From: Bosea sp. 685 | GTDB lineage: Bacteria; Pseudomonadota; Alphaproteobacteria; Rhizobiales; Beijerinckiaceae | Direction of reading: 5' to 3' | Length of the DNA: 64,000 nt | NCBI RefSeq assembly: GCF_031884435.1 | Contig: NZ_CP134779.1 | Span: 2,976,001-3,040,000, forward strand | Shown: piece after piece, positions 6,226-50,492 of the stretch | Numbering within the stretch: position 1 is the stretch's first letter | Layout: each line of letters starts with the position of its first letter | Notes under the pieces: model-generated | Seen by the model: only the letters and a program-made list of their open reading frames with translations | What the model was told of the DNA's origin: nothing | Databases searched by the model: none | Position numbers and translations under genes: made by a program

Positions 6226-7434
6226 ATGACCACTGCAACGTCAAGCATCCAGCCCGAACAGGGGGATGCAGCCGGTATCAACTGGCCGCTTCTCGCCCTG
6301 GCTGTGGGCGCCTTCGGCATCGGTACGACCGAATTCGCGCCGATGGGGCTCCTCCCCGTCATCGCGGAGGGGGTGAATGTCTCGATCCCGACCGCCGGCC
6401 TGCTCGTCAGCGCTTACGCGATCGGGGTCATGATCGGCGCCCCGGTGATGACGCTGACCTTCAGTCGGTTCGGCAAACGCACCGCGCTGATGCTGCTCAT
6501 GGGCATCTTCACCATCGGCAATCTCCTCTCGGCGCTGTCACCCGACTACTGGACGCTGCTGGCCGCACGCCTCGTCACCAGCCTCAATCACGGCGCCTTC
6601 TTCGGGCTCGGCTCGATCGTCGCCGCGAGCGTGGTGCCGAAGGAGAAGCAGGCCAGCGCCGTCGCAACCATGTTCATGGGATTGACCATCGCCAATATCG
6701 GCGGGGTGCCGGCGGCGACCTGGATCGGCCAGCAAATCGGCTGGCGCATGGCCTTCGCGGGCACGGCGGGATTGGGCCTCGTCGCCATCGCGGCGCTGTG
6801 GCTGGCCTTGCCGAGGGGCGAAGCCGGCACGATGCCGGATGTCAGGCGCGAACTGCGCGTCCTCACGCGCCCGGCCGTGCTGCTCGCCATGGCGACGACG
6901 GTGATGGGAGCTGGCGCCATGTTCACGCTCTACACCTATGTCGCTCCGACCTTGACCGAACTGACCGGCGCCTCAGAGGGCTTCGTCACGCTCGCCCTCG
7001 TGCTGATCGGCGTCGGCTTCACCATCGGCAACGGCGTCGGCGGACGGCTCGCCGACTGGTCGCTGGACGGCGCGACCAGGATCTTCCTGGGTGCGCTCGC
7101 GCTCATCATGCTGGCGCTGCCCTTCGTGCTGTCCAGCCATGTCGGCGCCGCGATCGGGCTGGTCGTCTGGGGCGCAGCGGCCTTCGCCATCGTGCCGCCG
7201 GTCCAGATGCGAGTGATGCAGGCGGCATCGGAAGCGCCGGGCCTGGCCTCTTCGATCAATGTCGGCGCGTTCAACCTTGGCAATGCTCTCGGCGCGGCCG
7301 TCGGTGGTGCCGTGATCAGCCTTGGCCTCGGCTATGCGGCCGTGCCGGTCGCGGGCGGGCTGCTCGCGGCGGCAGGGCTGGGCCTGGTCTGGCTCGGACG
7401 CGCTCGCCCGAAGCTAAAGGCGTGCGAAGCGTGA
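6226..7434 (+). CDS. MFS transporter, DHA1 family (AraJ/NepI/YdhP-like)
   Basis: 402 aa inner-membrane exporter with about 12 hydrophobic segments. The ATG at 6226 is preceded by GAGGAACAGGAC. Features of DHA1 drug/sugar exporters: the WPLLALAVGAFGIGTTEF first helix with the GTTEF motif of the AraJ/PbuE/NepI branch, the motif-A region FSRFGKRTALML between helices 2 and 3, and the motif-C-like helix 5. Members of this branch export nucleosides, arabinose-like sugars or drugs by proton antiport. Embedded in the LLM-AKR operon, it probably expels the same compound that the reductases act on, or its product. Confidence 0.92.
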   Translation: MTTATSSIQPEQGDAAGINWPLLALAVGAFGIGTTEFAPMGLLPVIAEGVNVSIPTAGLLVSAYAIGVMIGAPVMTLTFSRFGKRTALMLLMGIFTIGNLLSALSPDYWTLLAARLVTSLNHGAFFGLGSIVAASVVPKEKQASAVATMFMGLTIANIGGVPAATWIGQQIGWRMAFAGTAGLGLVAIAALWLALPRGEAGTMPDVRRELRVLTRPAVLLAMATTVMGAGAMFTLYTYVAPTLTELTGASEGFVTLALVLIGVGFTIGNGVGGRLADWSLDGATRIFLGALALIMLALPFVLSSHVGAAIGLVVWGAAAFAIVPPVQMRVMQAASEAPGLASSINVGAFNLGNALGAAVGGAVISLGLGYAAVPVAGGLLAAAGLGLVWLGRARPKLKACEA

Positions 7435-7475
7435 CAGGCCGCGTTTCGAGATCGAACAGGCGAGATCGAACAGGG

Positions 7476-7811
7476 ATGAATGAGATGTCTTTTCCGCTGG
7501 CCGGACAACGCTTCGAAGTCGATTATGGCGATCTCGTCGCCACCAACGCCTATGCCCAAGCGGGCCTCTCGCTGACCTACGAAATCACGGGCGGAGCGCT
7601 CACCGGCAACAGCGCGACCGTCGCGTTTGAATGGCGCCATCTTTTCGGCGGTACCTATGCGATCTCCTGGCAGGAGGCCGACGGTTCGACCGTCGTTCAC
7701 ATCGACGATTTCGAAGCAGGCCGCTCATTGGCCTTCTTCACCACTCCCGACGCTCGGTTCTTCCGCCTGGAAGGCAGCCTGAAGCCGCTGGAACCCGTCC
7801 ACCAGAATTGA
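7476..7811 (+). CDS. MoaF-related domain protein
   Basis: 111 aa from the ATG at 7476 (MNEMSFPLAGQ), with AACAGGG upstream. The sequence (QRFEVDYG, LTYEITGG, VAFEWRHLFGGTYAISWQEADGSTVVHIDDF) resembles the MoaF/MoaF-related lipocalin-like small beta-barrel. MoaF itself was named from molybdenum-cofactor clusters, but no Moco genes are nearby, so a Moco role is not supported. In similar operons such proteins are thought to bind or isomerise small hydrophobic ligands; here that is inference. It lies between the MFS and SDR genes and is surely cotranscribed (12 bases to the next ATG). Confidence 0.75.
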   Translation: MNEMSFPLAGQRFEVDYGDLVATNAYAQAGLSLTYEITGGALTGNSATVAFEWRHLFGGTYAISWQEADGSTVVHIDDFEAGRSLAFFTTPDARFFRLEGSLKPLEPVHQN

Positions 7812-40577: not shown

Positions 40578-40610
40578 AAAAAATGGCGCGCCGAAAGAAT
40601 CGGCGCGCCA
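40578..40610 (-). terminator. Intrinsic terminator of the aap operon
   Basis: On the minus strand TGGCGCGCCG (40110-side arm 40601-40610), loop ATTCTTT, CGGCGCGCCA (40584-40593), followed by TTTTTT (40583-40578). A perfect 10-base GC-rich stem with a U tract, 31 bases after the aapP stop. Confidence 0.92.
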
Positions 40611-40641
40611 GCTAAGAGGTCTTGATCTGACGATGTGAAAC

Positions 40642-41439
40642 TCAGTGCAGAATCTGGCTCAAGAAGAGCTTCGTGCGCTCATGCTGCGGGTTCTTGAAGA
40701 AGGCGTTGGGTTCGTTCATTTCGACGATCTGCCCGGCATCCATGAAAATGACCCGGTCGGCGACCTGGCGGGCGAAGCCCATTTCGTGGGTGACGCAGAG
40801 CATGGTCATGCCCTCATCGGCGAGCGAGACCATGGTGTCGAGCACCTCCTTGACCATCTCGGGATCGAGCGCCGAGGTCGGCTCGTCGAACAGCATGATC
40901 TTGGGGCTCATGCAGAGCGAGCGCGCGATGGCGACGCGCTGCTGCTGGCCGCCCGAAAGCTGGCCGGGATATTTCGCGGCCTGCTCGGGAATCTTGACGC
41001 GCTTGAGATAGTGCATCCCGATCTCCTCCGCGTCCTTCTTGGGCATCTTGCGGACCCAGATCGGCGCCAGCGTCAGATTCTCGAGGATCGTCAGATGCGG
41101 GAACAGGTTGAAGTGCTGGAACACCATGCCGACGTCGCGGCGGATCTCGTCGATCTTCTTCAGATCGTTGGTGAGCTCGGTGCCGTCGACGATGATCGAG
41201 CCCTTCTGGTGCTCTTCCAGGCGGTTGATGCAGCGGATCATCGTCGACTTGCCGGAACCCGACGGTCCGCAGATCACCAGCTTCTCGCCGCGCTCGACCT
41301 TCAGGTTGATGTCGCGCAGCACGTGGAACTCGCCGTACCACTTGTTGACGCCGACCATCTCGACCGCGGTCGGTGTGTTCAGCGAGGTCTGCTTCAGCGC
41401 CGCGGGGCGGCTCGCGGTATTCGTGTCTGCCATGGTCAT
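40642..41439 (-). CDS. aapP: General L-amino-acid ABC transporter ATPase AapP
   Basis: 265 aa from the ATG at 41439, with AAGGGACAAACCAAC upstream; the longer open frame overlaps aapM and lacks ribosome binding. Walker [11 protein letters not shown]-loop [13 protein letters not shown], signature [15 protein letters not shown], Walker [15 protein letters not shown] and the H-loop [15 protein letters not shown] are all present. Energises import through AapQ and AapM. Last gene of the minus-strand aap operon, 14 bases after aapM, followed by an intrinsic terminator. In Rhizobium the Aap system takes up a wide range of L-amino acids and also allows efflux. Confidence 0.96.
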
Positions 41440-41453
41440 GTTGGTTTGTCCCT

Positions 41454-42833
41454 TCAGCGCTTCTGACCGGCGGCCATCCGCTTCTCGACCGAGATCGAGT
41501 AGCGCGACATGCCCCAGCAACACAGGAAATAGAACATCGCGGCGAAGGCATAGCCTGTCGCGCGTGTGGTCGGCGTCGCCCAGGTCGGATCGACCAGGGT
41601 GGCTTCGATGGTGCGCAGGAAGTCGAAGATGCCGACGATGGTGACCAGCGTCGTATCCTTGAACAGCCCGATGAACGTATTGACGATGCCCGGAATGACG
41701 ATGCGCAGCGCCTGGGGCAGAATGATCAGCCGCATCATCTGCCAATAACCCAGACCGAGCGACATCGCTCCTTCATACTGGCCCTTCGGCATCGCCTGCA
41801 GGCCGCCTCGGATGACCTCCGCCATATAGGCGGCGGCGAAGAGTGCAACGCCAACCAGCGGCCGCAGCAGTCGGTCCGGCGAATATTCCTGCGGCACGAA
41901 CAGCGGCAGCATGGTGTTAGCCATGAACAGCACCGTGATCAGCGGCACGCCACGGACAAACTCGATGAAGATCACCGAGAGCAGCTGGATGATCGGCAGC
42001 TTCGAGCGGCGTCCCAGAGCCAGGATGACACCGAGCGGCAGCGAGAAGACGATGCCAACCGCCGCGATCAGGAAGGTCACCGTCATACCGCCCCAGAGCC
42101 CGGTATCGACACGCGGCAAGCCGATCGTATCGGCCAAGATCGCGATCAGGCCGAAGACGACCAGCGACAACAGGACCAGGCGCTTGGGCCGGTAGAAGCG
42201 CTTCCAGGGTGGCAGCGCCTCCTCGACGGCCAGGAAGGCGGGACCGATCCAGAAACGCGCCAGGGCCGGCACGAAGGACAGCACCAGGTAGACCACCATC
42301 AGCACAAGCGTCAGGCCGATGAGCCAGCGCAGGAAGCCTTCGGCATTGGGGCCGCCGAGCAGCAGCACATAGGCGCCGATCGGCAGCATGACGAAGAAGA
42401 AGAAGAAGCCGACCTTCTTCAGTGGCGCCCTTTCCCAGAGCAGCCAGACCACGCCGAGCGCGAACATGGCGAAGACGATGTTGACGCGCCAGCGCTGCGG
42501 CACCGGATAGGAGCCGTAGATGAAGTACTGGAAGCGGTCGCCGATATAGGCCCAGCACGCTCCGACCGGCCGGCCGATCTTGTCGGCGAGGCAAGCGTCG
42601 CGATTGGTGCCGCTCCAGACGGCATCGATGAAGTAGAACCGCACCATCTCCGGCACGCTGGTCACGACGATGTAGGCGCATAGCAGCGTCAGGATCGAAT
42701 TGACCGGACCGGAGAACAGGTTGGCGCGGACCCAGGCGACAGGCCCCGCCACCGAAAGCGGCGCGGTTTCCTGAGGCAGCGTCTCCTTGCGGACGAAGGC
42801 GTAGGGTGAGTTTTCGAGCGTTGCGTCGGTCAT
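41454..42833 (-). CDS. aapM: General L-amino-acid ABC transporter permease AapM
   Basis: 459 aa inner-membrane permease, larger than simple His/Glu-type permeases as is usual for AapM. Hydrophobic N-terminal segments ([18 protein letters not shown]) are followed by an insertion with several further helices ([47 protein letters not shown]), then the conserved permease core with [31 protein letters not shown], the EAA-type cytoplasmic loop, and [16 protein letters not shown]. It starts 10 bases after aapQ. With AapQ it forms the membrane channel served by the four AapJ paralogues. Confidence 0.95.
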
Positions 42834-42843
42834 CGTGGCGCCC

Positions 42844-44037
42844 TCACCGTTCCACCAGCGCCATGCGCTTGTTGTAGATATTCATGAAAAACGAGGTGAC
42901 GAGCGAGATCGTGAGATAGACCGCCATGGTGATAGCGACCACCTCGACCGCCTGCCCGGTCTGGTTCAGCACCGTGCCGGTGAAGACCTGGACAAGATCG
43001 GGATAGCCGATCGCGACCGCCAGCGAGGAGTTCTTGGTCAGGTTGAGGTAGTTCGAGGTCAGGGGCGGGATGATCACCCGCATGGCCTGCGGGATGACGA
43101 CGAGCTTCAAGGTCGGCCCGGCGCGCAGACCCAGCGCATTGGCAGCCTCGGTCTGCCCCTTCGAGACGGCGAGAATGCCGGCGCGCACGACCTCGGCGAT
43201 GAAGCCCGCGGTGTAGGTCGTAAGACCCAGCAACAGCGCAACGAATTCCGGGAAGATCTGGATGCCGCCGCGCAGGTTGAAGCCGGCGATCTCAGGATAG
43301 ACGAACGAGACCGGGCGGCCCGTGACGAGATAGACGAAGAACGGTAGCACCACGATCAAGCCGAGCGCGATCCAGCCGACGGGATACTGCTTGCCCGTTG
43401 CCTCCTGCTGCTTGCGGGCCCAGGCGCGGAAGATGATCGTGGCGACGATGCCGATCAGGAACGTCCAGACGATGAGAGAGCCGCCGGGACCGAGCTGAGG
43501 GTCAGGAAGATAGAGGCCGCGATTGTTGAGCAACGCTCCCGCCGGCAATTCGATCGACTGGCGCGGATTGGGCAGCGGCTTCAGCACCGCATTGTACCAG
43601 AAGAACAATTGCAGCAGCAGCGGCAGGTTGCGGATGACCTCGACATAGATCATCGCGAGCTTCGACAGCACCCAGTTGCTGGAGAGCCGCGCCACGCCGA
43701 CGAAGAAACCGAGGAAGGTCGAGAGTACGATGCCGATCGAAGCGACCAGCAGCGTATTCAGAAGGCCGACATAGAAAGCCTGGCCATAGGTCGAGCCCGA
43801 GGCGCTGAATGGGATCAGCTTCTGGTTGACGTCGAAACCTGCGGCATTGTGCCAAAAGCCGAAGCCGGACGCGATCTTCTGCGCGCGCAGGTTGGTGATG
43901 GCGTTCGACGCAGCCGAATAGAGCAGGAAGCCGACAACGGCGAGCAGAGCCAGCTGGTAGACATAGCCCCTTATCTTGGGATCGTAGAGCAGCGAGGCCT
44001 TGCCCGGCTGAACCGTCTCGGTCGGAATGGTCGACAC
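42844..44037 (-). CDS. aapQ: General L-amino-acid ABC transporter permease AapQ
   Basis: 397 aa, in the size range of AapQ. The N-terminal helix is LALLAVVGFLLYSAASNAITNL; the first periplasmic region SGFGFWHNAAGFDVNQKLIPFSASGSTYGQAF is a typical AapQ/BztB feature. The permease core contains SKGQTEAANALGLRAGPTLKLVVIPQAMRVIIPPLTSNYLNLTKNSSLAVAIGYPD, with the EAA loop and the NxTKNSSLA segment characteristic of polar amino-acid permeases. About 205 bases, mostly a palindromic repeat, separate it from aapJ1 upstream; this repeat may reduce read-through so that binding proteins outnumber permeases. Confidence 0.95.
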   Translation of the reverse strand: MSTIPTETVQPGKASLLYDPKIRGYVYQLALLAVVGFLLYSAASNAITNLRAQKIASGFGFWHNAAGFDVNQKLIPFSASGSTYGQAFYVGLLNTLLVASIGIVLSTFLGFFVGVARLSSNWVLSKLAMIYVEVIRNLPLLLQLFFWYNAVLKPLPNPRQSIELPAGALLNNRGLYLPDPQLGPGGSLIVWTFLIGIVATIIFRAWARKQQEATGKQYPVGWIALGLIVVLPFFVYLVTGRPVSFVYPEIAGFNLRGGIQIFPEFVALLLGLTTYTAGFIAEVVRAGILAVSKGQTEAANALGLRAGPTLKLVVIPQAMRVIIPPLTSNYLNLTKNSSLAVAIGYPDLVQVFTGTVLNQTGQAVEVVAITMAVYLTISLVTSFFMNIYNKRMALVER

Positions 44038-44130
44038 GTGTTACGCCCTTTTTTGTTTTGATTGCGGCAGGTGAACCGGCAGCGGACAGTACCGCCGCCG
44101 GATGTTTCCTTCTGATCTCAGACCGTTGCG

Positions 44131-44236
44131 CTAGAGCGATTTCCGATCCAATTGGATCGTTCAGTGGCTCTAGCCCTTTGTCTTGTCGCGTTTTCTTCAC
44201 GCGAACCGGTGTCCACTTCGCTTGAAAACGCTCTAG
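44131..44236. repeat. Dispersed palindromic repeat element between aapJ1 and aapQ
   Basis: Bounded by CTAGAGCG (44131) and CGCTCTAG (44229-44236). Contains GATCCAATTGGATC, then CGCGTTTTCTTCACGCG and CTTGAAAACG. The same blocks occur, in the same order or complementary, at 2271 and 57191, and in part at 50391. Within the aap transcript it would fold into a strong hairpin between the binding-protein and permease genes. Confidence 0.88.
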
Positions 44237-44242
44237 AGCGCC

Positions 44243-45265
44243 TCAACGGATCGGCGGCGCGTATTGCAACCCCCCTTTGGTCCAGAGCGCGTTCTGACCA
44301 CGTGCGATCTTCAGCGGCGAGCCCGCTCCGACATTCTTCTCGAAAACCTCGCCATAGTTCCCGACAAGCTTGACGATGCGATAAGCCCAATCATTGCTCA
44401 AGCCCATCGGCTCGCCGAATTTGCCCTCGGTGCCGACGAAGCGCTTGATCTCAGGGTTCTCCGATTTCAGCATCTCGTCGATATTGGCCTTGGTGATGCC
44501 GAGCTCCTCGGCGTTCAACATCGCGTTATGCGTCCATTTGACGATGTCGAGCCAGTTGTCGTCACCATGGCGAACGACGGGCCCAAGCGGCTCCTTCGAG
44601 ATGATCTCGGGCAGCACGATATGGTCCGCCGGAACCTGAAGCTTCAGGCGCTCGGCGTAAAGACCCGAGGAGTCCGTGGTGAAGGCGTCACAACGGCCGG
44701 ATTCATAGGCCTTGATCGTCTCGTCGCCGCCGCTGAAGGCCACGACCTCGTACTTCATCTTGTTGGCGCGGAAGAAGTCGGCGAGGTTCAGCTCGGTGGT
44801 CGTGCCTTGCGCGACGCAGACCGAGGCGCCGGCGAGCTTGAGCGCGGAATCGATGCCGAGCTTCTTGTGGACCATGAAGCCCTGGCCGTCGAAATAATTG
44901 ATCCCAGCGAAATTGAGGCCAAGCGAGGTGTCGCGCGACAAGGTCCAGGTCGTGGTGCGCGAGAGCAGATCGACCTCGCCGGCCTGCAGCGCCGTGAAGC
45001 GATCCTTCGACGAGAGCGGCACGAACTTGACCTTCTGCGGGTCGTTGAAGATCGCGGCCGCCAAGGCGCGGCAAAGGTCGACGTCGATACCGGTATAATT
45101 GCCCTGCGCATCGGGCATCGCGAAACCGGCGAGCCCTGGGCTCGTGCCGCATGTGACGACGCCCCTCGCCTTGATCTGCGGAAGCAACCCTGTCTGGGCC
45201 TGGGCAAAACCCGCACCGAGAGCGAGCGATGCGAGCACCAGTGTGGTTGTGACGGTTTTTTTCAT
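44243..45265 (-). CDS. aapJ: General L-amino-acid ABC transporter substrate-binding protein AapJ, copy 1
   Basis: 340 aa from the ATG at 45265 (MKKTVTTTLVLASLALGAGF), preceded by AGGGGAACGCA; Sec signal ends near AQAQ. Family 3 (AapJ/BztA) periplasmic receptor: ARGVVTCGTSPGLAGFAMPDAQGN, IDVDLCRALAAAIFND, SSKDRFTALQAGEVDLLSRTTTW, and the conserved C-terminus GGLQYAPPIR. It is by eye nearly 90% identical to copy 2 and clearly more distant from copies 3 and 4. Nearest to the permease genes. A -24/-12-type promoter (45315) and a perfect hairpin (45277-45310) lie directly upstream, so it may be expressed independently of the other copies. Confidence 0.95.
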   Translation of the reverse strand: MKKTVTTTLVLASLALGAGFAQAQTGLLPQIKARGVVTCGTSPGLAGFAMPDAQGNYTGIDVDLCRALAAAIFNDPQKVKFVPLSSKDRFTALQAGEVDLLSRTTTWTLSRDTSLGLNFAGINYFDGQGFMVHKKLGIDSALKLAGASVCVAQGTTTELNLADFFRANKMKYEVVAFSGGDETIKAYESGRCDAFTTDSSGLYAERLKLQVPADHIVLPEIISKEPLGPVVRHGDDNWLDIVKWTHNAMLNAEELGITKANIDEMLKSENPEIKRFVGTEGKFGEPMGLSNDWAYRIVKLVGNYGEVFEKNVGAGSPLKIARGQNALWTKGGLQYAPPIR

Positions 45266-45276
45266 TGCGTTCCCCT

Positions 45277-45310
45277 GTTTTAGGTGCGGGCTTACGCCCG
45301 CACCTAAAAC
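45277..45310 (-). promoter_or_regulatory. Perfect 15-base inverted repeat in the aapJ1 leader
   Basis: GTTTTAGGTGCGGGC (45277-45291), loop TTAC, GCCCGCACCTAAAAC (45296-45310). It ends 11 bases before the aapJ1 start codon, just ahead of the ribosome binding site AGGGG. If transcription starts about 12 bases after the -12 element of the upstream site, the RNA would begin at about 45304 inside the arm and fold with its 5' end nearly flush. Could stabilise the mRNA, or be an operator. Confidence 0.75.
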
Positions 45311-45314
45311 GCTT

Positions 45315-45330
45315 AGCAAGTCCCGGACCA
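45315..45330 (-). promoter_or_regulatory. Candidate sigma-54 (RpoN) promoter of aapJ1
   Basis: Minus strand TGGTCCGGGACTTGCT against the consensus TGGCACG-N4-TTGC(A/T): the GG and GC dinucleotides are at exact spacing, with two mismatches (TC for CA at positions 4-5). The identical 16 bases occur upstream of aapJ2. Known rhizobial aap operons respond to nitrogen status, which fits. Confidence 0.7.
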
Positions 45331-45414
45331 TGCGCTTTCGATGCGTAACGGACGGCGCGGGGCCGGGATCGATACGGCGCCGGCACGGAGCCGACGCCGA
45401 TCGCTCGCGATGCT

Positions 45415-46437
45415 TCAGCGGATCGGCGGAGCGTATTGCAGCCCACCCTTGGTCCAGAGCGCGTTCTGGCCGCGCGCGATCTTCAGGAGCGAGCCGCCGC
45501 CGACGTTCCGCTCGAAGGATTCGCCGTAATTGCCGACCAGCTTGATGATCCGGTAGGCCCAGTCATTCGTCAGGCCCATCGGCTCACCGAACTTGCCCTC
45601 GGTGCCGACGAAGCGCTTGATCTCCGGATTGTCGGATTTCAGCATCTCATCGACATTGGCCTGGGTGATGCCGAGTTCCTCGGCGTTCAGCATGGCGTTA
45701 TGCGTCCATTTGACGATATCGAGCCAGTTGTCGTCGCCATGGCGCACCGCCGGTCCAAGCGGCTCCTTCGAGATGATCTCGGGCAGCACGATATGGTCGG
45801 CCGGAACCGAGAGCTTCAGACGCTCGGCATAGAGGCCCGAGGCATCGGTGGTGAAGGCATCGCAGCGGCCGGATTCATAAGCCTTGATCGTCTCATCCGC
45901 GGACGCGAAGGCGACGACCTCGTACTTCATCTTGTTGGCGCGGAAGAAGTCGGCGAGGTTCAGCTCCGTCGTGGTGCCCTGTTGCGTGCAGACCGAGGCG
46001 CCAGCCAGCTTCAGCGCGGAATCGACGCCGAGCTTCTTGCGGACCATGAAGCCCTGGCCGTCATAATAGTTGATGCCCGCGAAGTTGAGGCCCAGCGAGG
46101 TGTCGCGCGACAGCGTCCAGGTGGTGTTGCGCGAGAGCAGATCGACCTCGCCCGACTGCAGCGCCGTGAAACGATCCTTCGACGAGAGCGGAATGTATTT
46201 GACTTTGCTGGTGTCGTTGAAAATGGCCGCAGCGAGGCCTTTGCAGAGATCGACGTCGAGGCCGCTCCAGACGCCCTGCGCGTCGGGGATGCCGAAGCCG
46301 GCAAGGCCGGGACCGACGCCGCAGGTGACGACACCTTTGCTCTTGATCTGACCGAGTGTGCCGGTCTGCGCTTGCGCTCCGCCGATGCAAGCCGTGGTTG
46401 CTGCCGCGACGATCGCGGCGGCGAAAAATTTATTCAT
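45415..46437 (-). CDS. aapJ: General L-amino-acid ABC transporter substrate-binding protein AapJ, copy 2
   Basis: 340 aa from the ATG at 46437 (MNKFFAAAIVAAATTACIGG), preceded by AGGGGAAACAACC; signal ends near AQAQ. Same architecture as copy 1: KGVVTCGVGPGLAGFGIPDAQG, LDVDLCKGLAAAIFND, ALQSGEVDLLSRNTTWTLSRDTSLG, ending GGLQYAPPIR. Differences from copy 1 are scattered and conservative; the binding-site region around DNWLDIVKWTHNAMLNAEELG is shared, so their ligand ranges are probably similar. Upstream are an identical -24/-12-type site and a 19-base hairpin. The open frame extends far upstream through a repeat but without resemblance. Confidence 0.95.
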   Translation of the reverse strand: MNKFFAAAIVAAATTACIGGAQAQTGTLGQIKSKGVVTCGVGPGLAGFGIPDAQGVWSGLDVDLCKGLAAAIFNDTSKVKYIPLSSKDRFTALQSGEVDLLSRNTTWTLSRDTSLGLNFAGINYYDGQGFMVRKKLGVDSALKLAGASVCTQQGTTTELNLADFFRANKMKYEVVAFASADETIKAYESGRCDAFTTDASGLYAERLKLSVPADHIVLPEIISKEPLGPAVRHGDDNWLDIVKWTHNAMLNAEELGITQANVDEMLKSDNPEIKRFVGTEGKFGEPMGLTNDWAYRIIKLVGNYGESFERNVGGGSLLKIARGQNALWTKGGLQYAPPIR

Positions 46438-46457
46438 GGTTGTTTCCCCTGTTGGCG

Positions 46458-46476
46458 GAACGGGTTCTTCCCGTTC
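46458..46476 (-). promoter_or_regulatory. Hairpin in the aapJ2 leader
   Basis: GAACGGG - TTCTT - CCCGTTC, perfect 7-base arms, between the -24/-12-type site (46487-46502) and the AGGGGAAAC ribosome binding site. The start site predicted from the promoter is about 46476, exactly the hairpin edge, so the mRNA would begin with this stem-loop. Confidence 0.7.
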
Positions 46477-46486
46477 TCGAAATGCT

Positions 46487-46502
46487 AGCAAGTCCCGGAC
46501 CA
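46487..46502 (-). promoter_or_regulatory. Candidate sigma-54 (RpoN) promoter of aapJ2
   Basis: Minus strand TGGTCCGGGACTTGCT, identical over 16 bases to the site before aapJ1 while the surrounding sequence has diverged. Exact GG/GC spacing of the -24/-12 class. Upstream activator (NtrC-type) sites were not identified. Confidence 0.7.
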
Positions 46503-46600
46503 AGCGATCCTCGCCCGGTATCCTCCCCTCCTTCCCCCACAAAATAAAGCCGTCGCGACCAAACCGCGAACGGAGCGCCGGCAGAACCGACGCTCCGCTT

Positions 46601-46716
46601 AGAGCATTGCGCGAAAAAGTGGGCACCGGTTTTTCGCAAGAGCAATGCTCTAAACTTTTAGAATCGATCACGTTTTTCGCATTCGGACGGAATCGTCCGA
46701 ATGCGACGTGATCTAG
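46601..46716. repeat. Composite palindromic repeat after aapJ3
   Basis: First half AGAGCATTGC...GCGAAAAA...ACCGGTTTTTCGC...GCAATGCTCT, second half GATCACGTTTTTCGCATTCGGACGG...CCGTCCGAATGCGACGTGATC-like pairing; both are strong hairpins. Shares halves with 11354-11429 and the core with 38477-38527. It ends 4 bases from the aapJ3 stop codon, between copies 3 and 2. Confidence 0.85.
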
Positions 46717-46720
46717 ACGA

Positions 46721-47743
46721 TCAACGGACCGGAGGAGCGTATTGCAATCCCCCGTTGGTCCACAGCGCATTCTTTCCACGGGCAATTTTGAGCACGGAAC
46801 CGGCGCCGACATTGCGCTCGAACGCCTCGCCGTAATTGCCGACCAGCTTGATGGCCCGGTAGGCCCAGTCATTGCTCAGGCCGACGCCTTCGCCGAACTT
46901 GCCCTCGACACCGAGCAGGCGCCGGATCTCGGGGTTGGTCGATTTGAGCATCTCGTCGACATTGCCCTTGGTGACGCCGAACTCCTCCGCGTTCAGCATC
47001 GCGAAATGCGTCCATTTCACCAGATTGATCCACTGCATGTCGCTGCTGCGGACGACCGGACCGAGCGGCTCCTTGGAGATGATTTCGGGGAGGACGACGG
47101 CATCCTCAGGCGCGGTCAGCTTCAAGCGCAGAGCGTAGAGCGCGGAGGAATCGTCGGTCAGCGCATCACAGCGCCCGGATTCGAAGGCCTTGATCGCCTC
47201 GTCACCCTTGTCGAAGGCAACGACCTCGTACTTGATCTTGTTGGCACGGAAGAAGTCCGCGACGTTCAACTCGGTCGTTGTGCCCTGCTGCAGGCAGATC
47301 GACGCGCCATCGAGCTTCAGGGCGGATTGGACGGCGAGCTTCTTCTGAACCAGGAAGGCCTGGCCGTCATAATAGTTCACGGTCGAGAAGCTCAAGCCGA
47401 GCGCCGTGTCGCGCCCCATCGTCCAGGTGCTCGTCCGCGACAGCAGATCGACCTCGCCTGACTGAAGCGCGGTGAAGCGGTCCTTCGACGACAGCGGAAC
47501 GAACTTGACCTTGCTGGCATCGTTGAAGATCTCGGCCGCGACGGCACGGCACAGATCGACATCGAGGCCAACCCAGTTTCCTTGCGCATCCGGGATGCCG
47601 AAGCCGGCCAGGCCCGGGCTGACGCCGCAAATGAGTTCGCCGCGGTTCTTGACCGTTGCGAGCGTGGAGGTCTGGGCCTGGGCGTGTTCCACGCCAGGAA
47701 GGAATGCGGCAAGCGCGAGCGCCGCGACGAGCAATCGTTTCAT
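46721..47743 (-). CDS. aapJ: General L-amino-acid ABC transporter substrate-binding protein AapJ, copy 3
   Basis: 340 aa, ATG at 47743 (MKRLLVAALALAAFLPGVEHAQAQ), with TAGGGGACTACC upstream. Same fold and termini (SPGLAGFGIPDAQGN; GGLQYAPPVR) but the most divergent copy in the ligand-facing parts: LSFSTVNYYDGQAFLVQKKL for the LNFAG...GFMV pattern of copies 1-2, EVVAFDKGDEAIKAFESGRCDALTDDSSALYALRLKL, and SSDMQWINLVKWTHFAMLNAEEFG. This suggests altered substrate preference. It has the leader hairpin but no clear -24/-12 site. A palindromic repeat directly follows its stop. Confidence 0.95.
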   Translation of the reverse strand: MKRLLVAALALAAFLPGVEHAQAQTSTLATVKNRGELICGVSPGLAGFGIPDAQGNWVGLDVDLCRAVAAEIFNDASKVKFVPLSSKDRFTALQSGEVDLLSRTSTWTMGRDTALGLSFSTVNYYDGQAFLVQKKLAVQSALKLDGASICLQQGTTTELNVADFFRANKIKYEVVAFDKGDEAIKAFESGRCDALTDDSSALYALRLKLTAPEDAVVLPEIISKEPLGPVVRSSDMQWINLVKWTHFAMLNAEEFGVTKGNVDEMLKSTNPEIRRLLGVEGKFGEGVGLSNDWAYRAIKLVGNYGEAFERNVGAGSVLKIARGKNALWTNGGLQYAPPVR

Positions 47744-47759
47744 GGTAGTCCCCTATCCG

Positions 47760-47776
47760 GAGCGGTTCATCCGCTC
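47760..47776 (-). promoter_or_regulatory. Hairpin in the aapJ3 leader
   Basis: GAGCGG - TTCAT - CCGCTC, perfect 6-base arms, placed just before the GGGG ribosome binding site as in copies 1 and 2 although the sequence differs. No matching sigma-54-type site at the equivalent upstream position. Confidence 0.6.
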
Positions 47777-47849
47777 TCGCGTATTCTGAGCGCCCAGAGC
47801 CGCATATTCTGCGGTTTATGAGGACCTATTCGGCATGGGCGTAAGCAGC

Positions 47850-47877
47850 CCGGGCGCCGAACAATGTCGGCGCCCGG
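47850..47877 (-). terminator. Hairpin between aapJ4 and aapJ3, terminator-like without U tract
   Basis: CCGGGCGCCGA (47850-47860), loop ACAATG, TCGGCGCCCGG (47867-47877), perfect 11-base arms, starting 13 bases after the aapJ4 stop. The minus strand lacks a following T run, so mRNA 3'-end stabilisation or partial attenuation is likelier than strict termination. Confidence 0.65.
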
Positions 47878-47890
47878 ATTTGGTTTGATC

Positions 47891-48916
47891 TTAGCGAACC
47901 GGCGGGGCGTATTGCAGGCCGCCCTTGGTCCAGAGTCCATTCTGGCCGCGCGCGATCTTCAGCAGCGAGCCCTGGCCGACGTTTTTCTCGAAGGATTCGC
48001 CGTAATTGCCGACCAGCTTGACGATGCGGTAGGCCCAATCGGCGGTGAGGCCGATGCCTTCGCCGAACTTGCCCTCGACGCCGAGCAGACGCTTGATCTC
48101 GGGATTGGGCGACTTCAGCATCTCGTCGACATTGGCCTTGGTCACGCCGAGTTCCTCGGCGTTCAGCATGGCGTAGTGCACCCACTTCACCAGGTTGAAC
48201 CACTGCGCGTCGGTGTTGCGGACGGACGGGCCGAGCGGCTCCTTGGAGATGATCTCGGGCAGGACCATGTGATCGTCCGGCGCCGTCAGCTTCAGGCGCT
48301 CGGCATAGAGGCCCGAGGCGTCGGTGGTGAAGGCATCGCAGCGGCCGGCGTCATAGGCCTTGACCGTCTCGTCGGAGGAGGCGAAGGCGACGACTTCGTA
48401 TTTCAGGTTGTTGGCGCGGAAGAAGTCGGCCAGATTCAGCTCGGTCGTGGTGCCCTGCTGAGTGCAGACCGAGGCGCCCGAAAGCTGCAGCGCCGAGGTG
48501 ACGCCGAGCTTCTTGCGGACCATGAAGCCCTGGCCGTCATAGTAGTTCACGCCGGTGAAGAGCAGGCCGAGCGCGCTGTCACGCGACATCGTCCAGGTCG
48601 AGTTGCGGACGAGCAGATCGACCTCGCCCGACTGCAGCGCGGTGAAGCGATCCTTCGCCGAAAGCGGGATGAACTTCACCTTGGCCGGGTCATTGAAGAT
48701 CGCCGCGGCGACGGCACGGCAGTAATCGACATCGAGGCCGACCCAGTTGCCCTGGGCATCCGGCACACCGAAGCCGGCGAGACCGGTGTTGGAGCCGCAG
48801 TTGAGGATGTTACGCGACTTGACCTGGGCCAAGGTCGCAGGCGCCTGCGCCGAAACCGCTGTCGCGGTGACCGCGAGCCCAAGCCCTGCGATCGCGGCTG
48901 CCAAAAATTTCTTCAT
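47891..48916 (-). CDS. aapJ: General L-amino-acid ABC transporter substrate-binding protein AapJ, copy 4
   Basis: 341 aa from the ATG at 48916 (MKKFLAAAIAGLGLAVTATAVSAQ); an in-frame ATG five codons upstream is possible, but GGGAGAGAG within it is the probable ribosome binding site for 48916. Family core intact: NCGSNTGLAGFGVPDAQGN, LDVDYCRAVAAAIFNDPAKVKF, LQSGEVDLLVRNSTWTMSRDSALG, ending GGLQYAPPVR. Ligand-region changes (LLVRNSTW for LLSRTTTW; NTDAQWFNLVKWVHYAMLNAEELG) set it apart from copies 1-2. First gene of the locus, divergent from metC, so the principal promoter of the run probably lies upstream. Confidence 0.95.
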   Translation of the reverse strand: MKKFLAAAIAGLGLAVTATAVSAQAPATLAQVKSRNILNCGSNTGLAGFGVPDAQGNWVGLDVDYCRAVAAAIFNDPAKVKFIPLSAKDRFTALQSGEVDLLVRNSTWTMSRDSALGLLFTGVNYYDGQGFMVRKKLGVTSALQLSGASVCTQQGTTTELNLADFFRANNLKYEVVAFASSDETVKAYDAGRCDAFTTDASGLYAERLKLTAPDDHMVLPEIISKEPLGPSVRNTDAQWFNLVKWVHYAMLNAEELGVTKANVDEMLKSPNPEIKRLLGVEGKFGEGIGLTADWAYRIVKLVGNYGESFEKNVGQGSLLKIARGQNGLWTKGGLQYAPPVR

Positions 48917-48981
48917 TACACTCTCTCCCATTGAGGTCTCCTGTCCGGCCGGGCCGGCAGGCCGTCATCGGCTTCGCCGCT

Positions 48982-48997
48982 TGCAGGCGTTTTGCCC
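48982..48997 (-). promoter_or_regulatory. Weak sigma-54-type site upstream of aapJ4
   Basis: Minus strand GGGCAAAACGCCTGCA; GG and GC are at the exact -24/-12 spacing, with four mismatches to the consensus. It lies 66 bases before the aapJ4 start. Weaker than the copy 1 and copy 2 sites and could be coincidental. Confidence 0.35.
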
Positions 48998-49173
48998 GCT
49001 CTGATTGCACAGGAATTAAGCGGCGTCCCCAAAGTCGATTGCCAGAGACGCTCATGAGCGTCAAGCAACGGCCCATATCCGGCACGCCTCTTTCCCGCCC
49101 TCGCATCACATGCAAGTTTCCGGGGGTGGTCAAGCCTGACCCGGAACCAGAGAACGGCCTTGCGATTCCATCC

Positions 49174-50364
49174 ATGAAAAAGCTGTCCCCGCCTGACTTC
49201 GCGCGCCTGCGCGAGAAGACCCGCCTCGTCCTTGCAGGCCGCGATCCGGCCGATAGCTATGGTTTCGTCAATCCCGCGATCGTGCGCGGCTCGACGGTAA
49301 TCTATCCCAATATGGAGGATTTCCTCGCCCGGAAGTCGCGCTACACCTACGGCACGCAGGGCAATCCGACGATCGATGCGCTGATCGCGGCGCTGAACAC
49401 CATGGAAGGCGGCGCGGGCGTCGTCGTCTGCCCCTCAGGCCTGCTCGCCTGCACCTTACCGATGCTGGCGGTGCTCTCGGCCGGCGATCACCTTCTGGTG
49501 ACGGACAGCGTCTACCGGCCGACGCGCAACTTCTGCGACAAGATGCTGCCGCGCCTGGGCATCGAGGTCAGCTATTACGATCCGGCCGTCGGCGGCGATA
49601 TCGCAAAGCTGTTCAAGCCGAACACCAAGGCTGTCTGGACCGAGGCGCCGGGCTCGCAGACCTTCGAGATGCAGGACATTCCGGCCATCGTGGAAGCCGC
49701 GCATGCCCGCGACGTGCTGGTGCTGATGGACAACACCTGGGCGACGCCGCTGTTCTTCGACAGCCACAAATTCGGCGTCGACATCTCGGTACAGGCCGGC
49801 ACGAAATATTATGCCGGACACTCCGACGTGCTGATCGGCACCGTCTCGGCGCGCACGCCCGAGCTCTACAAGCTGGTCCGGGACTGCTGGGAGACGCTCG
49901 GCGTCATCATCGCGCCCGAGGACGCCTTCCTGACGTTGCGCGGCATCCGCACCATGCATATTCGCTTGAAGGAGCAGATGCCGGCCGGCCTCGACATGGC
50001 GCAGTGGCTGAGCGAGCGCCCGGAAGTGGCGCGGGTGCTGCACCCAGCGCTGCCGAGCGATCCCGGCCACGCGCTCTGGAAGCGCGACTTCACCGGCGCC
50101 TCCTCGCTGTTCGCGATCGAGCTGAAGCCCGTGGCGATGAAGGCTGTCGGCGCCATGCTGGACGGCCTGACCCTGTTCGGCATGGGCGCGTCCTGGGGCG
50201 GCTATGAGAGCCTCGCCCTGCCCTTCGACTGCAAGCCCTATCGCACGGCGACGACGCCAAACTTCGCGGGGCCGACGATCCGCCTGCATATCGGGCTCGA
50301 AGACATCGAGGATCTGAAGGCCGATCTCGACGCCGGCTTTGCCCGGCTGCGCGCGGCGAGCTGA
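49174..50364 (+). CDS. metC: Cystathionine beta-lyase
   Basis: 396 aa from the ATG at 49174 (MKKLSPPDFARLREKTRLVL). PLP-dependent Cys/Met metabolism enzyme; the pattern VNPAIVRGSTVIYPNMEDF, RYTYGTQGNPTIDALIAALNTMEGGAGVVVCPSGLLA, WATPLFFDSHKFGVDISVQAGTKYYAGHSDVLIG (the PLP lysine is in GTKYYAGHSD) and GASWGGYESLALPFD are family hallmarks. Cleaves cystathionine to homocysteine in methionine synthesis; members often also cleave cystine. The open frame upstream overlaps the divergent aapJ4 promoter. A palindromic repeat follows the stop. Confidence 0.93.
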   Translation: MKKLSPPDFARLREKTRLVLAGRDPADSYGFVNPAIVRGSTVIYPNMEDFLARKSRYTYGTQGNPTIDALIAALNTMEGGAGVVVCPSGLLACTLPMLAVLSAGDHLLVTDSVYRPTRNFCDKMLPRLGIEVSYYDPAVGGDIAKLFKPNTKAVWTEAPGSQTFEMQDIPAIVEAAHARDVLVLMDNTWATPLFFDSHKFGVDISVQAGTKYYAGHSDVLIGTVSARTPELYKLVRDCWETLGVIIAPEDAFLTLRGIRTMHIRLKEQMPAGLDMAQWLSERPEVARVLHPALPSDPGHALWKRDFTGASSLFAIELKPVAMKAVGAMLDGLTLFGMGASWGGYESLALPFDCKPYRTATTPNFAGPTIRLHIGLEDIEDLKADLDAGFARLRAAS

Positions 50365-50390
50365 GGGCCTGGCTCCGAGACCGTCGCTCT

Positions 50391-50492
50391 AGAGCATTTC
50401 CGCGTTTCTCCGAATCGCGGAAATGCTCTATCTCCTTGTATTATTGCATTTTCTTCACGAGAACCGGCGTCCGCTTCGCTCGAAAATGCTCT
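50391..50492. repeat. Dispersed palindromic repeat after metC
   Basis: AGAGCATTTCCGCGTTTCTCCGAATCGCGGAAATGCTCT forms a perfect long stem-loop, followed by TTGCATTTTCTTCACGAGAACCGGCGTCCGCTTCGCTCGAAAATGCTCT, similar to the right half of the copies at 44131 and 2271. The first part recurs at 34271. Lies between the convergent metC and LAB_N genes and could act as a terminator. Confidence 0.85.

Follow-up and report, generated by a model that had tools for sequence, protein, structure and literature searches.

Four tandem AapJ-type receptor genes, probably diversified in ligand pocket and regulation, upstream of a single AapQMP permease in Bosea

HisJ and LAO (ArgT), two receptors with different specificities, share the HisQMP permease. 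That one ATP-binding cassette (ABC) importer can be served by several receptors is already known from Pseudomonas aeruginosa, in which the paralogous receptors DppA1-A5 have distinct ligand profiles and work with the single importer DppBCDF, according to the available portions of two reports (PMC4206461, PMC12728205). The portion available of a further report describes aapJQMP of Sinorhizobium meliloti as up-regulated under nitrogen limitation and as part of a PII/NtrC-linked cluster (PMC3596328). Here we analyze a stretch of 64,000 nucleotides from Bosea sp. 685 (hereafter the window), in which four aapJ-type genes, named J1 to J4 in transcription order, all lie upstream of aapQ, aapM and aapP. 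This array is lineage-specific, and its AapJ-type receptors very probably serve one AapQMP permease. Judging from sequence, we favor the reading that these are differently regulated, pocket-diversified receptors feeding one permease, as DppA1-5 do in Pseudomonas, and that the receptors used by this one importer may vary as conditions change.

All of these genes are on the minus strand. J1 (47891–48916, 341 aa) comes first, on the side of a divergent metC-like cystathionine beta-lyase gene that marks the locus (49174–50364, plus strand, start estimated), and is followed by J2 (46721–47743), J3 (45415–46437) and J4 (44243–45265), each encoding an AapJ-type solute-binding protein of 340 aa, by the permease genes aapQ (42844–44037) and aapM (41454–42833), and by the ATPase gene aapP (40642–41439, start estimated from the translation). 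The initial annotation, whose copies 4, 3, 2 and 1 correspond to J1, J2, J3 and J4, had described four full-length tandem aapJ-type genes, and the open reading frames, lengths and ends are all as it described. Each of the four carries a hydrophobic N-terminal leader, judged by eye, and a Shine-Dalgarno-like stretch, ends in GGLQYAPP(V/I)R and matches SBP_bac_3 above the cut-off; the nearest solved structure is 4z9n by sequence (J1, J2 and the profile) and also by fold for the J1 model. Domain, fold and the adjoining aapQ, aapM and aapP mark them as AapJ-type receptors, and one permease set with several receptor genes is the arrangement of a multi-receptor ABC importer. Nine further AapJ-like genes, with 46–64% identity to J4, lie elsewhere in the 6.8 Mb genome.

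Copy number was compared over a genus set of 67 genomes, that of the window included, in 64 of which the locus could be counted (G002, G026 and G031 being excluded); G065, at a contig end and lacking aapQ, was taken as at least two copies, and G011, with a broken J1, as two. The metC-J(n)-Q-M-P synteny and a graded copy number span these 64 loci, with a single copy at 13 of them, two at 30, three at 17 and four at 4, and more than one copy is therefore the rule in the genus (51 of 64). A J1-type copy is present at 63 loci. The orders found are J1 alone (13), J1-J3 (18), J1-Jx-J3 (13), J1-Jold (10), J1-J2-J3 (3), J1-J3-J4 (1) and J1-J2-J3-J4 (4), besides odd loci in G040 and G043, with Jx and Jold denoting additional paralogue clades not found in the window; these names rely on residue 43 and others and hence are not independent evidence, and the residue comparison was grouped by locus order and tree. 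The same four-gene order recurs in G001, G008 and G020, all of the same genus, which makes an assembly artefact unlikely. Among the best 80 of 553 related loci a single copy is usual (Microvirga, Methylobacterium), the exceptions being L056 and L057, with two copies each, and L089, with three. The initial assumption that one aapJ is the norm thus holds in related genera but not within Bosea. As a separate observation, aapQ of G020 (L141) aligns over 232 residues only in one open frame, reflecting a frame break or a sequencing error, and its J4-Q gap measures 945 bases between aligned ends.

The range of one to four copies within one genus and the J1 frame break in G011 could also be taken for copy number drift without adaptive meaning, in which the extra copies are being lost. 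This is hardly credible, given that the four-copy order is maintained in four genomes (the window's own, G001, G008 and G020) and that the ratio of nonsynonymous to synonymous divergence (dN/dS) is 0.03–0.16 for all four J genes in them, which argues against the silent copies that had been considered at the outset. Synonymous divergence (dS) between paralogue pairs is 0.59–0.99, indicating that the copies are old. J3 and J4, the closest pair (84% amino acid identity), had been regarded as recently duplicated; their dS of 0.78 in the window, with 0.75 in G001, is comparable to the values that the other pairs span and rules this out. Gene conversion among the C-terminal parts of copies of one genome was also considered, and the signal is weak and not relied on: J1-J3 gives 0.849 inside a genome and 0.836 between genomes (p 0.002, the smallest value among 28 comparisons), and three other comparisons gave p 0.02–0.04.

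Contact roles of pocket residues were taken from what is available of two reports (PMC6069109, PMC7815116) and mapped onto the J copies. T107, R112 and D199, which hold the alpha-amino and alpha-carboxylate groups of the ligand, are retained in J1–J4, as expected of AapJ-type receptors, and so is R90. The side-chain positions differ among J1, J2, J3 and J4, reading N/S/G/S at 43, A/S/S/S at 87, N/T/N/T at 105 and S/G/A/G at 181, with D198 noted in J2 (J1 numbering), and the pocket differences between copies are mostly clade-fixed across many species (the J1 set of the residue comparison numbering 51, without loci L179–L184 and L200–L206). Of 298 columns, only column 43, which aligns with Asp11 of LAO, a ligand side-chain contact, takes four different states across six paralogue clades with conservation of 90% or more for each state; its states were upheld in six genomes added afterwards. 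The segments LLVRNSTW, LSFSTVNYYDGQAFLV, LLSRTTTW and LNFAG, in which the initial annotation had seen differing ligand contacts, are found where it placed them. Its proposal is supported in part, by the positions aligned to side-chain contacts, where the four pockets appear not to be identical; the loops that it named are less telling than column 43.

Two paralogue clades outside the window show changes of their own. Jx (the middle J gene of L129, L132, L137, L139, L144, L147, L152, L154, L155, L158 and L160) has N at residue 112 in 11 of 11 sequences and in both later ones (L200, L201), and thus lacks the conserved alpha-carboxylate arginine and with it the full backbone-binding set of the AapJ type; it also carries A47I, K88N (10 of 11) and Q154R, and its ligand may not be a simple amino acid. 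Jold (the second J gene of L161, L162, L164, L166, L169, L170, L171, L175, L177 and L186) departs at otherwise near-constant positions, including D127G, Q129E and T197A.

Regarding regulation, sigma54 promoters have GG and GC 10 bases apart, in the frame TGG-N9-TTGC. Putative -24/-12 promoters of this type precede J3 (TTGGTCCGGGACTTGCT, 46487–46503, minus strand) and J4 (TGGTCCGGGACTTGCT, 45315–45330, minus strand), identified by pattern, position and conservation; they are the two matches of the pattern TGGNNCNNNNNTTGCW in the window, the one at J3 spanning 46487–46502, and each stops roughly 50 bases short of its gene's start codon. Across the Bosea loci, a sigma54-like site 20–160 bases upstream was found for J3 in 38 of 39 genes and for J4 in 5 of 5, and in none of 63 J1, 6 J2 or 10 Jold genes, against a background for the wide pattern of 0.12 per kb and strand in which these sites are counted; the second copy of G045, its start missing, was excluded. 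Under the strict pattern the counts are 28 of 39 (J3) and 4 of 5 (J4), and again zero of 63 J1, 6 J2 and 10 Jold genes. The J3 site lies at about -62 to -83, and in the alignment conservation covers the site and continues into the following stretch, the sequence before the site being unconserved. GG/GC spacing, a fixed place and conservation are thus all present for both J3 and J4, and RpoN has one match in the genome. No sigma54 site was found before J1 (0 of 63), whose upstream region contains a conserved block. Among 75 long open reading frames of the window, the strict pattern was found upstream of one, J4, with J3 escaping since its longest frame starts further upstream.

The aap locus of G063 contains J1 only, and a J3 gene that shares the promoter of the array and has a comparable leader is located elsewhere in that genome (L203, G063:C1:592000-606000, near 6655–7671). 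No match to an aap permease was found in the surrounding 14 kb. This location speaks for a unit that functions by itself. Outside Bosea, a sigma54-like site was found before 8 of 66 aapJ-type genes, all eight in Methylobacterium loci with a single aapJ (L064–L069, L082 and L091); there it lies about 90 bases upstream, reads TTGGAATGCCTCTTGCT with near variants and differs in sequence from that of Bosea.

The predicted promoters are followed by leader hairpins. That of J4 (45277–45310, minus strand) has a 15 bp stem and a GUAA loop and is markedly stable (z -5.7), and that of J3 (46458–46476, minus strand) has 7 bp and stands directly before the Shine-Dalgarno stretch. Both were identified by folding and covariation. 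In an alignment of 45 leaders, comprising 44 of the 53 distinct J3, J4 and Jx leaders known, 99.4% of the stem cells of the 44 distinct leaders are paired and 13 cells are changed on both sides; the covariation score was reached in 0 of 500 shuffles, relatedness not being allowed for, and slid structures scored far lower. On these grounds J3 and J4 each resemble a unit that has a transcription start of its own.

The favored reading of differently regulated, pocket-diversified receptors would operate as follows. J1 would be the resident general L-amino-acid receptor for AapQMP, governed by its own conserved upstream region, which is not of the sigma54 type, and J2, J3 and J4 would be extra receptors with altered side-chain pockets, J2 perhaps an older variant. 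J3 and J4 would each be transcribed from their own sigma54 promoter, yielding an mRNA that starts near the hairpin, and nitrogen limitation, acting through NtrC/RpoN, would lead to more J3/J4 receptor. With all four docking on AapQMP, J3 and J4 would supply the permease with further amino acids or with related compounds and so widen its import range.

Several observations weigh against this reading. Pocket contacts were assigned by sequence alignment and spacing and not from model coordinates, and the 11 pocket columns defined from the literature show, as a set, no enrichment for differences between clades (their mean rank is 168 of 298); several of them are invariant, and column 43 lies within a variable stretch. 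Residue 43 is also variable in 18 single non-Bosea genes (N in 14, S in 3, T in 1), and the first J copy of G040, a small and distant genome (L182), has G there, unlike other first copies. As for regulation, Jx matches the looser sigma54 pattern in just 5 of 13 genes and the strict one in none of 13, and the J3 hairpin by itself is no more stable than chance (z -1.78; equaled by 13 of 200 shuffles). Within the window, moreover, matches to TGGNNCNNNNNTTGCW are not above chance (2 against 0.95 expected, with as many in 24 of 100 shuffles), and neither are those to a looser pattern (29 against 31.8 expected). Site number alone proves nothing, and the sigma54 case therefore rests on position and conservation.

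The lack of enrichment among the pocket columns would also fit a role in dosage only, whereby every copy accepts one common, broad range of L-amino acids and those under sigma54 control just add receptor when nitrogen is short; the backbone-binding residues kept in all four copies agree with this, and the extra promoters suit it just as well. We consider this explanation rather unlikely in view of the four-state column 43 aligned to a ligand side-chain contact, the old divergence of the copies and the presence of two linked residue sets at positions 42/44/87/105 of J3, each in 18 of 39 genes. The chance-level site count, together with co-directional genes separated by gaps of 147–283 bp, would also be compatible with a single operon read from a promoter before J1, the sigma54-like sites and hairpins being inactive relics of duplicated genes. 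This is improbable, since the J3 site is kept almost throughout at a fixed distance with unconserved sequence upstream of it, the hairpin pairs covary, and the site is retained by the J3 gene located elsewhere in G063.

The J3 gene of the window differs from that of its sister species in a stretch of about 600 bp (45727–46327, minus strand, approximately residues 37–237, ends approximate) that corresponds to the ligand-binding core and appears to be a recombination tract. In 200-base bins over 40600–50400, the window is 88–100% identical to G001, G008 and G020 outside J3 and 74–87% in the J3 bins 45800–46400; dS to each sister is 0.53–0.58 for J3 against 0.08–0.26 for the other seven genes. 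Within the tract the window mostly resembles other Bosea J3 alleles, G038 and G010 being for the most part nearer to it than the sisters. Upstream of the tract, the promoter and leader are 98–100% like the sisters and the gene start 88–93%, and bin 46386–46327 is distant from all compared J3 genes; downstream, the C-terminal part is 90–98% like them, save bin 45546–45487 at 82–83%, other Bosea J3 genes being almost equally close there. Among the J3 genes of the genus, the best match to that of the window reaches only 89% identity, so that the donor is not among the genomes compared.

The residue sets at 42/44/87/105 are VPSN in 18 of the 39 J3 genes and STAT in another 18, with three others; the window has VPSN and its sisters STAT. 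With residues 87 and 105 used to define them, the two sets share no residue at nine additional columns, 42, 44 and 182 among them, and the difference is almost gone in residues 251–341. On a quickly built tree of Q, M and MetC, with good support on 14 of 33 inner branches and G028, G065 and G066 excluded for a missing flanking gene, the sets require at least 7 changes (33 rows; mean 11.4 and minimum 7 in 200 shuffles), suggesting that they partly track the tree and cross it several times. The distance correlation with the flanking genes over 34 genomes (G005 and G011 excluded) is 0.50 for J3 against 0.71 for J1, the lowest value within J3 being 0.35 in residues 25–130. It can tentatively be speculated that each sigma54-driven extra receptor gene of Bosea is a self-contained cassette of promoter, 5' hairpin and receptor placed before the one permease, whose ligand-binding cores are exchanged between species with the promoter and the C-terminal part retained, that the two linked pocket types of J3 have thereby become scattered through the genus, and that the J3 of the window has switched type compared with its three closest relatives. 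If true, a core swapped without its promoter or C-terminus would show importers gaining substrates with the permease unchanged, the importer being re-programmed through receptor-core swaps. In G005 (L160) the J3 slot holds a different gene, which groups with an unlinked AapJ-like gene of the window's genome (L119) and is nonetheless preceded by a sigma54-like site and a leader.

Other elements of the array include a strong hairpin after J1 (47850–47877, minus strand; z -3.15 for 65 bases folded), after which the gene strand has no T run, so that a stabilizer is likelier than a terminator; similar hairpins, judged by eye, follow J1 at loci with Jx or Jold. Between J2 and J3 lies an interspersed, partly palindromic repeat of about 118 bp (46599–46716) that is absent from the alignment to the three sister loci, in which the J2-J3 gap is shorter (172 bp between aligned ends); it has at least 40 further matches in the genome at E 8.2e-23 or better, 40 of 197 candidates having been scored. 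A sigma70 scan of 42800–49200 found nothing, and the 7 terminator-like structures counted there are near chance (5.2, sd 2.2).

Among the 12 of 55 titles listed in a literature search, none concerned aapJ in Bosea, which says little about print at large. New, in our view, are an array graded in copy number among members of one genus, the sigma54 units that it contains and the apparent exchange of a receptor core. Close relatives provide a natural series of one, two, three and four receptors per permease, and with the marked positions 43, 87, 105 and 181 and the different promoters, receptor number, pocket, regulation and importer range can be linked by measurement. Like the Bosea locus, Rhizobium AapJQMP has the J-Q-M-P order, with receptor, permease and ATPase belonging to the same families, but the available part of the report on it describes an operon with one J (PMC3596328), as opposed to four in Bosea, two of them with sigma54-type promoters of their own. 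In Brucella, the second copy of the pair AapJ1/AapJ2 is unlinked, in contrast to four copies in tandem plus the nine other AapJ-like genes. HisJ and LAO belong to the same family as the Bosea J copies by NCBIfam and PDB matches; they are, however, two in number, shorter and without the AapJ C-terminal extension. The likeness to DppA1-A5 lies in several paralogous receptors serving one ABC importer, with distinct ligand profiles described there and predicted here, but the former are peptide receptors and not AapJ, and the available portions of the reports on them describe neither a graded genus series nor sigma54 leaders (PMC4206461, PMC12728205).

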